This document shows, piece after piece, positions 14,080-24,711 of a stretch of 29,896 nt of DNA; the first letter of the stretch is position 1, and the number at the start of each line of letters is the position of its first letter. The DNA is taken from the IMG/VR virus record IMGVR_UViG_3300045999_010736, positions 1-29,896 of that record; one strand, given 5' to 3'. This stretch comes from a virus. The translations under genes were made by a program, and so were the position numbers. Below the pieces are notes generated by a model. That model saw only the letters and a program-made list of their open reading frames with translations, was not told the origin of the DNA and did not search any database.

Positions 14080-14135
14080 AAAAAAGCCCGCCTCGTAGCG
14101 TCGGGCGGGCGGGGAGACGCCTTGTGAAGTCTCCC
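14080..14135 (-). terminator. Tandem hairpins ending in a minus-strand terminator
   Basis: GCCCGCC (14086-14092) pairs with GGCGGGC (14104-14110), and the minus strand continues with six Ts (14085-14080). A second stem, GGGAGAC (14112-14118) with GTCTCCC (14129-14135), lies between it and the stop of the primase-helicase gene. Strong end signal for that transcript. Confidence 0.88.
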
Positions 14136-14149
14136 TCTCTTTGCGCTAG

Positions 14150-16204
14150 TTAAAACCAGATGTCGTCGTCCGCCCCATCAGGGGCGGGCTCTTCCGGCCC
14201 ATCTTCTAATTTGGCGGAAATTTGACTTTCGTTAGACGATGGGAAGTCATCTCCTAATTTGGCGGAAATTAGGACTTCGCTAGGAGCAATGTCTTCAAGC
14301 TCCTGTTCCACGTAGTTGAAGCTTTGATACATGCGGTCGCGCTCACCAGTGGGGCCTAGCTGCCACGATGAATCAATGAGGCCTTGCCTGCGAGCCTGCT
14401 CCAGCAGGCGACGCGCACTGCTGGTGCTACTCAAGCCAAGCATCATGCCAATCTGACTAGGGCTGAAGCGTTCGTTGCCACGGTTGTTCACCATGTTGGC
14501 CACGCGCATCAAGCCATCAGGATCTCCATCTACCGGACCTTTGTAGAACCAGCCATAGGTGTCGGGCTCTCGGACGAGGAAGTGCTTACCGCTCAAGCCG
14601 GAACGGCTCTTTGTCCACTCCAGCAGGAATTCATTGGGGCCAGGATTGTTTTCTGGTCGGTATAGCTTCACCACTTCTGAAACGTTGGCCTCAAAGCTGG
14701 AGCTATCGCGAATGCCGCCGGTCTTGTTGAGGTGGTGAAGAATGACGATGGAGCAACCGTAGGTGTTGGCGATGTCCCGAAGTTCGTAGATGACATTGCC
14801 GGCGTCGCTCTTGATTAAATCAACGTCCATGCCGGCAAGGCAAGCGGTGAGGCTGTCAATGGCGACGAAACGAGGGCGCTCACGCTTGATGCGATCAGCG
14901 AGCCAACCAATGTTGGAGAATCGCCAGCGTTCCACAAAACCAATGGCGTCTTCAGGCATGTCGGGCCGGTCGTAGCCAATGACTTGCATCTTTTCTGCAG
15001 CATCCACAACCGGCTCGTCACATTGAATGATGAGGCTCTTGCCTGGCAGGCACCGCCTGCCGCTCCAGTCGGAGCCCAGCGCAATGTTCATCGCCCAGTT
15101 GTAGACAAGAGTGGACTTACCGCTACCAGGGGCCGCTGCGAGAAGCATCACGCTGCTTTCAGGCAGAATGCCAGCAATAGTCCAGCGGCGCACGTCATTG
15201 GACATGGCAATGGCCTTGGCATCCAGCACTTCAATCTCCTCTTTACCATCCACTCTGGTTTTGGCTTCACCAATCAGCTTGTCAAGTTCAGTGGTGGAAA
15301 TTTTGAGGCCATGATTGGTCATCCATTGACGAGCCTCAAACAAGACACGCGCGTCATTGCCATACAGTCCCACCATCGTCTCAAGAGTGCCGATGATCTC
15401 CTCGTAGGAAGGGAGACCATCTTGCCCTTCATGGCGATCCTTGCTGACAATGGAATTAATGATTAAGTCTTGTGACGCGCCTTCGTCTATCCAATCGGCG
15501 AGGTCATAGCCGTTGTTCTGCGGAAGCGTCTCCCATTCAAAGGATTCGGGATCTGCATAGAGCCATTGAGCGCCGGGATTGTCCGCTGCCACCTCTCGCA
15601 TGAGAGCCACTCCAGGCTCATCTCTGTCTGGACACAAGACGAGACGATGGCTTCGGAAGAGTTTGGAATAGTCTCCGTTGGAACGATATTGTTTGCTACC
15701 TCCCAGAAATGTGACGGATGGTAATCCTATTTCCCACAACTTATCGCAGCAGAGTTCACCTTCAACGACAAAGATTGGGTGCTGCGTAACCTTGGAGGCT
15801 TCGATGGCTTCTTTATACCTATAAGGCAGGATTTCGCTGCGAAGTGCATCAATAACCTTCTTGCGCTGCGGCGTGTCGCTTGACACGCTTGGATATTCCT
15901 GAAAAATCTGCTTTTTGCCGTTGTTATCGTTGCGCACCACCTCGAGAACCCTGTTACCATCACGGTTCTCATATGGGAAGATGTAGCGACCGTCCTCGCG
16001 GGCGGGACGCTCCCAGCGATCCATTGGTGCCAGTATTTGACGAATTTCAGCGCGATGTTTCGCTGATGGATCGTTCCAGCAGTTGTAGGAGCCGTCTGAT
16101 TTATTGAAGGAAAAATTAGTCCCTTGGCATGCTGGGCAAATGTATTTGCCGGCTTCCTTGGCGGGCTCCAACTTGCCTACGTGATCGAGGATGTCAAATG
16201 CCAT
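14150..16204 (-). CDS. DNA primase-helicase with SSB-like C-terminal tip (684 aa)
   Basis: Domains in order: a zinc-binding region (C23, C26, C42, with H50 near); a TOPRIM primase domain with VVEGE (146-150) and CPDRDEP (191-197); a linker; and a RecA-like helicase domain with Walker A APGSGKST (358-365), Walker B FVAID (446-450) and HHLNK (490-494); then a winged-helix-like stretch (RFSPSQIGMMLGLSSTSSAR). The family unwinds DNA at the fork and primes lagging-strand synthesis. The acidic tail carries a 16-residue duplication (ISAKL twice) and ends DDDIWF, close to the DDDIPF tip of bacterial SSB. It is alone on the minus strand, divergent from the recombination operon. Confidence 0.95.
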   Translation of the reverse strand: MAFDILDHVGKLEPAKEAGKYICPACQGTNFSFNKSDGSYNCWNDPSAKHRAEIRQILAPMDRWERPAREDGRYIFPYENRDGNRVLEVVRNDNNGKKQIFQEYPSVSSDTPQRKKVIDALRSEILPYRYKEAIEASKVTQHPIFVVEGELCCDKLWEIGLPSVTFLGGSKQYRSNGDYSKLFRSHRLVLCPDRDEPGVALMREVAADNPGAQWLYADPESFEWETLPQNNGYDLADWIDEGASQDLIINSIVSKDRHEGQDGLPSYEEIIGTLETMVGLYGNDARVLFEARQWMTNHGLKISTTELDKLIGEAKTRVDGKEEIEVLDAKAIAMSNDVRRWTIAGILPESSVMLLAAAPGSGKSTLVYNWAMNIALGSDWSGRRCLPGKSLIIQCDEPVVDAAEKMQVIGYDRPDMPEDAIGFVERWRFSNIGWLADRIKRERPRFVAIDSLTACLAGMDVDLIKSDAGNVIYELRDIANTYGCSIVILHHLNKTGGIRDSSSFEANVSEVVKLYRPENNPGPNEFLLEWTKSRSGLSGKHFLVREPDTYGWFYKGPVDGDPDGLMRVANMVNNRGNERFSPSQIGMMLGLSSTSSARRLLEQARRQGLIDSSWQLGPTGERDRMYQSFNYVEQELEDIAPSEVLISAKLGDDFPSSNESQISAKLEDGPEEPAPDGADDDIWF
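14206..14270. repeat. 48-bp-period repeat within the primase-helicase tail
   Basis: CTAATTTGGCGGAAATT occurs at 14206-14222 and 14254-14270, exactly 48 bases (16 codons) apart. It encodes ISAKL twice in the acidic tail. It indicates a recent in-frame duplication of the linker before the C-terminal tip. Confidence 0.85.
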
Positions 16205-16710: not shown

Positions 16711-16978
16711 ACTGAAAAACCATCTCGCAGATTTTCTCGTCGAAAACGACGACTGTGACGTGCGTTTGTACTGCGAAAGCGTCATCTATGACGACTGCTA
16801 CGACGAACATGCTCACGAAGTGATTTCCGACATTCGCATGGTGAATGACTGGCCACTTCCTGGCGAAAGCATCATCACTGGCAATGCCGAGGCTCCTGGC
16901 AAGTATCTCGTCATCTTCTACGACTCCAATGAAGAGACGAAGAAGCGTTACGCAAGTGGCCTTCTCTCTCGCCTATGA
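16697..16978 (+). CDS. Hypothetical acidic protein (93 aa)
   Basis: MKASELKNHLADFLVENDDC begins at ATG 16697, inside the end of the RHH-like gene. It is strongly acidic (DVRLYCESVIYDDCYDEHAH) with alternating strand-like segments, and ends TKKRYASGLLSRL. It overlaps the next gene by four bases (ATGA). The operon position (RHH-like gene, this gene, annealing protein) suggests a replication or recombination accessory. No family is recognised. Confidence 0.82.
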   Translation: MKASELKNHLADFLVENDDCDVRLYCESVIYDDCYDEHAHEVISDIRMVNDWPLPGESIITGNAEAPGKYLVIFYDSNEETKKRYASGLLSRL

Positions 16979-17910
16979 AGCACTCCTTCGTTCTCTACGA
17001 TCCTTCAGTCATGTCTTCCGATCCCACGCAACAAGCAATGATGGACCGCTACAACGGCATCTTTACTCCTCTTGAAATCACTGCAGAAGCCTTCAAAGCT
17101 GCCTATGACACACCTGACATTGGTCCACACATTGAGAAGGACTACAAAGGACTGTCCTACCTCTCCTGGCCCTTTGCTTACCGTTATCTCAAGGAACATT
17201 TCCCCACCCTCTTCGTTGCCTTTGAAGAGAAAACCGTGGGTGAAGTGGTGTTTGGTGGCCCTGGCTATTACTACCTGCGCCCTTATCTCACTGATGGCAT
17301 GAGGCGTACTGTTGCCTTGATCTTTCCTGTGATGGACAGGAAGCACAATGCCATCAAAGAACTCGATGGTCGTGCAATCAGCGACAACTGCCAGCGCGCA
17401 GCAGTCAAGTGCATCGCCACCTTCACTGGCCTTGGCTTGCGTCTTTATGCAGGTGAAGACATCCCTAAGGAAGATGACCAAAAAGGATCACCCCGGCTCC
17501 CGCTTCAACAGGAAGCTCCGAAGCAAACTGCGGCACCAGCGGCGGAGCAAGCGCCTGCTGACACAAGCAATGCTCATCTTGGAGAAGCGTGGGCTATTCC
17601 CTTCGATGGAAAGCAAGCCCTCGTTGAATTCTGCGAGGCCAATCCTCTTGGATTGGCCGATGTGAGGGCCTGTCAGGTGGCAGTGAAGAACGCTCTCGAT
17701 ACTGTCGGTCTCACCACTGGCGCCAATGTGAAAACCATTGCCGACTTTGGCAATGTGATCACCACTCTTGTCTCGTCATGGACAAAGGACAGCGGCATCA
17801 AGATCACCAAGGCTGCCATGACCAAAGAGCTGGACAGCATTCGTGGCAATGCCGTCAGTGTTCAAGGTGCCATCGATGCAGTGAAGGCATTCGTGGAGGC
17901 AAAAAAGTAG
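16975..17910 (+). CDS. DUF1071-type single-strand annealing protein (311 aa)
   Basis: Residues about 45-165 carry the family pattern: KDYKGLSYLSWPFAYRYLKE, an aromatic PGYYYLRPYLTDGMRRTVAL, FPVMDRKHNAI, and ISDNCQRAAVKCIATFTGLG then LRLYAGEDIP. This is the pattern I know as DUF1071, a family linked to phage single-strand annealing proteins. After a proline/alanine-rich linker (about 175-200), the C-terminal domain (AHLGEAWAIPFDGKQALVEF onward) is unassigned. The neighbour two genes on is a RecB/Cas4-like exonuclease, the usual partner of such proteins in phage recombination. Expected role: annealing of complementary single strands. Confidence 0.88.
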   Translation: MKHSFVLYDPSVMSSDPTQQAMMDRYNGIFTPLEITAEAFKAAYDTPDIGPHIEKDYKGLSYLSWPFAYRYLKEHFPTLFVAFEEKTVGEVVFGGPGYYYLRPYLTDGMRRTVALIFPVMDRKHNAIKELDGRAISDNCQRAAVKCIATFTGLGLRLYAGEDIPKEDDQKGSPRLPLQQEAPKQTAAPAAEQAPADTSNAHLGEAWAIPFDGKQALVEFCEANPLGLADVRACQVAVKNALDTVGLTTGANVKTIADFGNVITTLVSSWTKDSGIKITKAAMTKELDSIRGNAVSVQGAIDAVKAFVEAKK

Positions 17911-18380: not shown

Positions 18381-18652
18381 AGCCTATTGGAGCTTTCCAG
18401 AAGACACGTTGGATAGTCCACGACGTGTTGCTGCTTTGCTTTCTTCTGTTATTAGTTCCGGCCTACTGGATCCTGTTTCTCTTCTTCCGTTCATTAATCG
18501 TCATCTCATGCCTGACATCGCAATGTGCACTGGCGGTGAGTGTCCCGTTAAAGAAAACTGCTGGCGTTACATGGCGCCTCCTGATCGCTATCAATCGCAA
18601 TTCGCGGCGCCGCCATGTACGGACGAGGGCTGCGAGTATTTCTGGGACATGA
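18377..18652 (+). CDS. Possible overprinted membrane protein (91 aa)
   Basis: ATG 18377 has one of the better ribosome-binding sites of the operon (GGGAGAAGG, ending 3 bases before it) and overlaps the upstream stop (ATGA). The N-terminal half has a long hydrophobic run (DVLLLCFLLLLVPAYWILFL, then FFRSLIVISCL), which would be membrane-embedded. The second half lies in another frame of the well-supported 18508-18663 gene and is basic. Either this is a real overlapping gene, or the frame of 18508 begins farther upstream and the hydrophobic run is a by-product. Confidence 0.45.
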   Translation: MKPIGAFQKTRWIVHDVLLLCFLLLLVPAYWILFLFFRSLIVISCLTSQCALAVSVPLKKTAGVTWRLLIAINRNSRRRHVRTRAASISGT

Positions 18653-18663
18653 ACGAGAAATGA
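18508..18663 (+). CDS. Small cysteine-rich protein, 'CTGG.CP.K..C' type (51 aa)
   Basis: ATG 18508 gives MPDIAMCTGGECPVKENCWR, then YMAPPDRYQSQFAAPPCTDE and GCEYFWDMNEK. Five cysteines in the order C..C..C...C...C with the 'APP..YQS.F..PP' middle match a small metal-binding-type protein that I recall from many phages. The same frame stays open upstream to 18238 and is plausible from about 18360 (EAYWSFPEDTLDSPRRVAAL), so an earlier TTG start is possible. The stop overlaps the exonuclease ATG (AATGA). Confidence 0.78.
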   Translation: MPDIAMCTGGECPVKENCWRYMAPPDRYQSQFAAPPCTDEGCEYFWDMNEK

Positions 18664-19421
18664 AACTCCCCCGCTTTGAACCAAACAGGCTGCAATTGAA
18701 CAAGAAGCGTTATTACGTTCTTGATCAGTTTCCAAACGTGCCTGCTGGGATAGTGCTCCCTTCCGTCACAACTGTCGCCTCAACTACTGCCCCCATCGGC
18801 AAGACAATGGCGCTCATTAACTGGCGGAAGAAAGTGGGGGATGAAGAGGCAAACCGCCGCACCCGCAATGCTGTGGAGCGTGGTAATTGGCTTCATGGAG
18901 TGTTGGAGGATTTGTTCAATGGGGAAGACATTGAGGAGCATTTCAATCACTCTCCTCAATACATCCCTTACTACACATCCATTCAAGACTTCCTTGATCG
19001 CATTGGTGAGCCTCTATTAGTGGAGAGCGCTATCGCCTGGTATTGCCCCTCCAGGGAGATTGGTTATTCAGGCACCTTTGACATGCTTGCAACCATGAAA
19101 GATGGTGCTTATGCACTGCTTGATTGGAAGACTAGCTACAAAGAAAAGCCTGACGCCCAGCTTTCCGACTATCGGATGCAGCTTGGCGCCTATGTGCAAG
19201 CCATCGAACAGATGTATTCCATCGAAATCGAGCAAGCACATTGCGCAATAGCCATCTACGACCCAGACACTGGGAAGGGGCAAGAGGCTCAAATTGTGAG
19301 CCTCGATTCCAGCGAGCTTGTAGCGCAAGCTGGTGTGATGGCACAGAAGACGCAACAGTTCTTTTTCGACCACTACCCCGGTCGTGTGCCCTTCACAATT
19401 TCTATGGATAGGGGAGCCTAA
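18660..19421 (+). CDS. PD-(D/E)XK exonuclease, RecB/Cas4-like (253 aa)
   Basis: ATG 18660 overlaps the upstream stop and gives MKLPRFEPNRLQLNKKRYYV; an in-frame ATG at 18615 lies inside the previous gene. Motifs: RGNWLHGVLED (74-84), VESAIAWY with E122, GYSGTFDML with D141, DWKTS with D155 and K157, and MQLGAYVQA with Q174, the order of the RecB/lambda-exonuclease/Cas4 nuclease family. Such enzymes resect DNA ends to give single strands for the annealing protein encoded two to five genes upstream. No iron-sulfur cysteine set is seen, so it is not a full Cas4. Confidence 0.9.
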   Translation: MKLPRFEPNRLQLNKKRYYVLDQFPNVPAGIVLPSVTTVASTTAPIGKTMALINWRKKVGDEEANRRTRNAVERGNWLHGVLEDLFNGEDIEEHFNHSPQYIPYYTSIQDFLDRIGEPLLVESAIAWYCPSREIGYSGTFDMLATMKDGAYALLDWKTSYKEKPDAQLSDYRMQLGAYVQAIEQMYSIEIEQAHCAIAIYDPDTGKGQEAQIVSLDSSELVAQAGVMAQKTQQFFFDHYPGRVPFTISMDRGA

Positions 19422-23763: not shown

Positions 23764-24711
23764 ATGTGGCCCACTGATCGGGCATTCTGGGACGAATGCT
23801 TTCAGATTGCCCGCAGGTGTGGGGCTCGATATCCTGAATTGGCGGCGGCGCAATGCTGCTTGGAAAGTGGATTCGGGCAACATGTTTCCGGCACTCATAA
23901 CTACCTTGGCCTAAAAGGAAGTGGTACCACTACGACCACGCAAGAGTGGTACGACGGGCAATGGGTGACGATTAAAGCAGGCTTTATTGATTTTCCTAGC
24001 CTTGCCGCATGCATCGAATATCTTGTCACGCGGTGGTATAAAGACTATCGTCAATTCAAGGGCGTCAACCACGCCCCTAATCGCTATGCAGCAGCGCGCA
24101 TGCTTAAAGAGCAGGCGTATGCAACTGATCCAGAATATCCTGCTAAATTATCGCGACTGATGAAGGAATATGCTCCTGAATCAACGCGCTCTTCTCCCAT
24201 GATCGGCCCCAAGAAAACCCCTAAAGATTTCGGTTTCAAGAAAGGTGATCACCATATCGTCGTTAACGATGTAGTGGAAACCGCTAAATGCTTCACCTTT
24301 GAAGGGAAGCTCCTCTGGGAGCTTCCTGCTCTAGCACGTGGCCAGGGTAGTGATTACGAGTGGAAACTGCGCAACACGGACACGCCTCCGGGTCTATACA
24401 AAATAGGGACTGTCTATCGTGACTACGAAATCAATGGAAATAAGCCCACCTTTGACCGCACGTTAATGGCCTATGGCTGGTACAGTTTGGACATGATTGA
24501 CCTTGAGGGGCAAGAGGTTGGCGTGGGGCGGTCTGGAATCATGTTGCACGGCGGAGGCAGTGGCAATGGCTGGCCTGGCGCTTGGGCACCAATGCAGGCC
24601 CTTCTGGCTACGCATGGATGCGTGCGCATGCACAATGCTCACCTGCGTGACTTTGTGATGCCGCTGCTGAAAACTGGTTCTATCTTCATCAGCGTCTATC
24701 AGGAAGGATGA
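23764..24711 (+). CDS. Endolysin: glucosaminidase (GH73-like) fused to L,D-transpeptidase-fold domain (315 aa)
   Basis: N-terminal domain (about 1-140): AAAQCCLESGFGQHVSGTHN, YLGLKGSG, later FIDFPSLAACIEYLVTRWYK and AARMLKEQAYATDPEYPAKL, the plan of FlgJ/GH73-type N-acetylglucosaminidases with E34 as the likely catalytic acid. A linker (about 145-160) leads to a C-terminal domain with HIVVNDVVETAKCFTFEGKL, SGIMLHGGGSG and THGCVRMHN: H262 and C286 fit the HG...(S/T)HGCVR signature of YkuD/ErfK L,D-transpeptidases. Both act on peptidoglycan. There is no signal peptide, so release needs a holin, which lies just upstream. The pairing of these two folds in one protein is unusual. Confidence 0.9.
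   Translation: MWPTDRAFWDECFQIARRCGARYPELAAAQCCLESGFGQHVSGTHNYLGLKGSGTTTTTQEWYDGQWVTIKAGFIDFPSLAACIEYLVTRWYKDYRQFKGVNHAPNRYAAARMLKEQAYATDPEYPAKLSRLMKEYAPESTRSSPMIGPKKTPKDFGFKKGDHHIVVNDVVETAKCFTFEGKLLWELPALARGQGSDYEWKLRNTDTPPGLYKIGTVYRDYEINGNKPTFDRTLMAYGWYSLDMIDLEGQEVGVGRSGIMLHGGGSGNGWPGAWAPMQALLATHGCVRMHNAHLRDFVMPLLKTGSIFISVYQEG

Follow-up and report, generated by a model that had tools for sequence, protein, structure and literature searches.

An SSB-like C-terminal tip conserved on the primase-helicase of phages related to Synechococcus phage S-CBS4

The window, by which we mean the whole stretch of DNA analyzed here, is a 29.9-kb IMG/VR virus record. Its replication region resembles that of Synechococcus phage S-CBS4 (NC_016766), as DNA identity is 76% across most of 13.0–16.3 kb, and the primase-helicase encoded there is 81% identical in protein sequence to S-CBS4 gp082, annotated as a RecA-family ATPase. 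The virus is a relative of S-CBS4 and one of a family of cyanobacterial viruses. The features of the locus are collected in Table 1.

In Pfam, the primase-helicase matches AAA_25 at 8e-28 and gives otherwise weak ATPase matches only, with DnaB_C below the cut-off and no OB-fold SSB domain (PF00436). The DNA primase/helicase profile phrog_239 matches at 4e-47 over residues 71–642, which is most of the protein, and the DNA primase profiles phrog_849 and phrog_6088 match as well. The Toprim-like motifs are invariant across the homologue family. When the PDB was searched with the helicase profile, no match was returned. The initial annotation had likened the protein to T7-type primase-helicases, but it does not belong to the T7 gp4 family, as it falls under AAA_25 and phrog_239 instead and tblastn against phages gave no T7-type match at 1e-5. 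Just downstream of the helicase stop, at 14080–14120 on the minus strand, a GC-rich stem (GCCCGCC...GGCGGGC) with a T-run after it resembles an intrinsic terminator; its loop exceeds what the promoter and terminator scan allows, and that scan gave nothing informative.

Table 1. Features of the primase-helicase gene and its neighboring module in the window.
Feature	Position	Strand	Basis or remark
Primase-helicase gene, 684 aa	14150..16204	(-)	Toprim primase + AAA_25/RepA-like helicase + C-terminal tail
Toprim-like primase motifs, residues ~143-205 (VEGE...LCPDRDEPG)	15590..15778	(-)	Sequence motif
AAA_25 ATPase/helicase domain, residues 329-496	14717..15220	(-)	Pfam; P-loop APGSGKST
Variable acidic, Pro-containing C-terminal tail, residues 632-684	14153..14311	(-)	Low column conservation; predicted disorder
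16-residue (48-nt) in-frame insertion with second ISAKL copy	14204..14251	(-)	Private to window contig
SSB-Ct-like tip DDDIWF	14153..14170	(-)	Terminal Phe invariant in 58/58 distinct homologues
Sak-type ssDNA annealing protein	16975..17910	(+)	SSAP_Sak 7e-15; phrog_8492 2e-71
PD-(D/E)XK exonuclease	18615..19421	(+)	Profile matches; conserved in module
Putative phage SSB, 91 aa	19471..19746	(+)	Gly/Ser-rich linker; tip SDDLF

The last six residues of the primase-helicase had been read as DDDIWF, and the open reading frame indeed ends in ...DGADDDIWF before its stop codon. The tail that carries them is predicted to be disordered, with a pLDDT of ~28 in a poor AlphaFold model (mean pLDDT of 51) that we used for tail disorder alone.

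The 17-base repeat described at 14206 and 14254 is exact and correctly placed, and sits within a 36-nt repeat of 83% identity (14200–14235 versus 14248–14283). The 16-residue duplication is also real, being in frame with its copies (ISAKLGD and ISAKLED) 16 codons apart. That it is fresh holds only in part. The insertion is confined to the window contig and recent, because all other homologues lack it, including one 97% identical to the window protein (L002), but the two copies match well for only ~21 nt, with divergence to either side. As far as the alignment tells, the duplication is incidental, altering the length of the linker and not the tip, on which it has no visible bearing.

Conservation of the tip was examined using homologues gathered from IMG/VR, whose C-termini were read in 75 intact proteins (58 distinct, down to ~56% identity); three further homologues interrupted by a probable intein were counted apart. 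The terminal residue is Phe in all 75, and in the three intein-bearing proteins as well. The family does not end at unrelated residues when aligned for DDDI.F, as the penultimate position is confined to W, L, P or F, with Pro in 8 of the 75 and mostly Trp in the others. At least two acidic residues occupy positions −8 to −2 in every intact homologue, and at least three do so in 71. The exact hexapeptide DDDIPF occurs in two homologues (L012 and L013) and DDGIPF in six, among other tips including DDDIWF, DDDEWF, DEDDWF, EDFDLF, VDDCLF and ADHDFF.

On a tree of the core, no change is inferred at the terminal Phe and nine at the penultimate residue, compared with 5–27 in linker columns. Mean column conservation is 76% in the core, 19% in the linker (residues 632–676) and 61% in the last six residues, while tail length ranges from ~22 to 54 residues. 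Because the Phe is encoded by both TTC (42) and TTT (16) and followed by any of the three stop codons, the constraint acts on the protein.

Of the 105 annotated proteins of S-CBS4, three have a terminal Phe with at least two acidic residues among the preceding five, where composition leads one to expect ~0.45; they are gp074, gp082 and a doubtful 31-aa ORF. On the evidence of the sequences, the tip on the primase-helicase is not due to chance, and we are highly confident that it represents a conserved docking motif. Relatives of the Toprim part encoded in cyanobacterial genomes lack the tip. Nor is it a general feature of these ATPases, because it is missing from the distant AAA_25 helicases of Gordonia and Mycobacterium phages and of BcepGomr. 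Separately, the probable intein of the three interrupted homologues (L079, L080 and L081) is ~350 aa long and lies in the helicase Walker A motif (GTGK|A...VTHN|TS) at residues ~363–711.

The helicase is accompanied by the Sak annealase, the exonuclease and the small putative SSB in 71 of 71 loci, these being the ones whose contig retains the helicase flank. The profile phrog_18154 (‘single strand DNA binding protein’) weakly matches 32 of 41 members of the 91-aa protein's family, and a fold search with a medium-quality model gave nothing significant, so the protein's identity as an SSB derives from the weak profile match. Its tip is conserved among relatives as SDDLF, SDDPF or similar. A PF00436 SSB was detected neither in the window nor in S-CBS4, and was found in the contig of homologue L004 only, where the SSB-like ORF (L171) has no acidic C-terminal tip.

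Host-class SSBs carry tips of the same kind. Among cyanobacterial SSB ORFs, 46 of 55 end in Phe; small-genome cyanobacteria have EIPF, DEEVPF, DEDIPF or DSDLF, and other species DDDF or DDEF. SSB-Ct pockets bury the side chain of the terminal Phe, hold its carboxylate via basic residues and contact the acidic Asp residues; removal of the Phe abolishes binding, and a change of the penultimate residue (SSB113) weakens binding by E. coli SSB (PMC10164576).

We consider it about 60% probable that the tip is an SSB-Ct-like docking motif that captures SSB partners, most likely those of the host or the phage's own Sak annealase. The SSB-like reading of the tip, proposed in the initial annotation, gains support from the conserved tip, the exact DDDIPF in two relatives, the linker that is free to vary, and the occurrence of such tips on both host-class SSBs and the phage SSB-like protein. 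Like the bacterial SSB-Ct (DDDIPF), the phage tip has an acidic run, a hydrophobic penultimate residue and an obligatory terminal Phe on a variable disordered linker. Unlike it, the tip sits on a primase-helicase rather than an OB-fold SSB, mostly has Trp before the Phe, and its binding is putative. Counting against the reading, the tips differ from those of known SSBs in the penultimate Trp and, in DDDEWF and ADHDFF, in having Asp or Glu at −3 where SSB has Ile; the weaker binding of E. coli SSB changed at the penultimate residue weighs the same way.

In the mechanism we propose, the last five to six residues would act as a short linear docking motif, with the acidic run, the hydrophobic residue and the terminal Phe displayed at the end of a disordered linker that tolerates changes in length. 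Should the helicase form hexamers, as its RepA/DnaB relatives do, about six tips would project from each ring, and these could bind the basic and hydrophobic SSB-Ct pockets of SSB-interacting proteins. The phage helicase would thereby be coupled to host replication, restart or recombination proteins, and possibly to phage Sak. That SSB's usual partners are what the tip engages is most likely because these phages have no recognizable polymerase but do have the helicase-primase, Sak, the exonuclease and the putative SSB. We thus rank capture of host partners first and of Sak second as the most likely role, and the partners would rather probably be those of the host, or of host and phage both.

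An alternative of low probability is a T7-like coupling tail, in which acidic residues and a terminal Phe dock electrostatically on a replicative polymerase, either the host's or an undetected phage one. T7 gp4, also a phage primase-helicase, ends in such a tail (SNDTDF), as does gp2.5 (DEDGDF), and T7 polymerase has basic patches to which the gp4 tails bind (PMC12593628). Also in favor, a distantly related ATPase of the Pseudanabaena phages PA-SR01 and Pam2 ends in IEDEF, with a DNA polymerase annotated close by in PA-SR01; the resemblance of IEDEF to the DDEF class of host SSB tips is only suggestive. However, the family here is a different one from gp4, and its exact IPF and DDDIPF tips with their hydrophobic penultimate residue resemble SSB, not T7. 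Docking on a phage polymerase, which the initial annotation had entertained, is unlikely because neither family A nor family C (Pol III alpha) polymerases were found in S-CBS4, deposited as a complete genome, or in 18 related contigs, mostly of 60–107 kb and possibly incomplete. Family B polymerases were likewise not found in eight records. Controls worked in both searches, and the genomes searched were mostly metagenome contigs of unstated completeness.

An only slightly weaker contender is a phage-internal role, by which the tip would bring the helicase to the Sak annealase for recombination-dependent replication. The constant company of Sak, the exonuclease and the tip-bearing putative SSB fits this role, and so does a replication and recombination module of phage HK620, in which the terminal hexapeptide of the SSB (NDYPPF) recruits the Sak4 annealase and is required for the two to work together (PMC5928155). 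In HK620, however, the tip is on the SSB and the annealase is the RecA-like Sak4, whereas here the helicase and the putative SSB both bear a tip and the annealase belongs to the Sak family (SSAP_Sak). Nor do the helicase and SSB tips show obvious co-variation between phages.

Autoregulation is improbable; the acidic tip would occupy the helicase's own DNA-binding surface until displaced by ssDNA, as was proposed for the T7 gp2.5 tail (Marintcheva 2008, as cited in PMC5686142), but this alone would not explain why the terminal Phe is invariant or why some tips are identical to that of SSB. Least probable of all is a sliding-clamp binding motif (..DLF). Some tips do read FDLF, DDCLF or SDDLF, but the Gln that such motifs require at a set place is absent and the majority, with EWF, IWF, IPF or DFF, do not match.

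Returning to the SSB-Ct-like docking tip, a close known counterpart is S-CBS4 gp082, a homologue that ends in DDGIPF on a shorter linker without the duplication. Tips of the SSB-Ct kind, T7 tails and the tips of phage SSBs are already known, but the literature searched, with partial coverage, gave no prior report of an SSB-like or SSB-identical tip conserved on the primase-helicase of phages without a recognizable polymerase. Genome maintenance in bacteria uses the SSB-Ct as its main docking code, and these viruses probably bear it on their own helicase so as to plug into the host replication machinery. More tentatively, by mimicking the tip of host SSB, the helicase-primase might serve as a multivalent, SSB-like hub and directly bring host SSB partners, such as the polymerase, restart factors or recombination factors, to a fork for which the phage supplies no polymerase.

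The conserved tip on both the helicase and the putative SSB suggests how phages without a recognizable polymerase could couple their fork to host enzymes. Short peptides offer a direct test of host capture, and the ~20 natural variants of the tip, with W, L, F or P in the penultimate position, could serve in studying pocket specificity in cyanobacteria.

Two minor observations were made along the way. A contig binned in a Rhodobiaceae bacterium MAG (L086, NYTN01000042.1) carries the helicase module of these phages, and is likely a misbinned virus, having 20,518 bases, the same as viral contig 2786546945_000009. In the window itself, the protein encoded at 23764–24711 combines glucosaminidase and YkuD L,D-transpeptidase domains, which seems an uncommon combination in a phage lysin.
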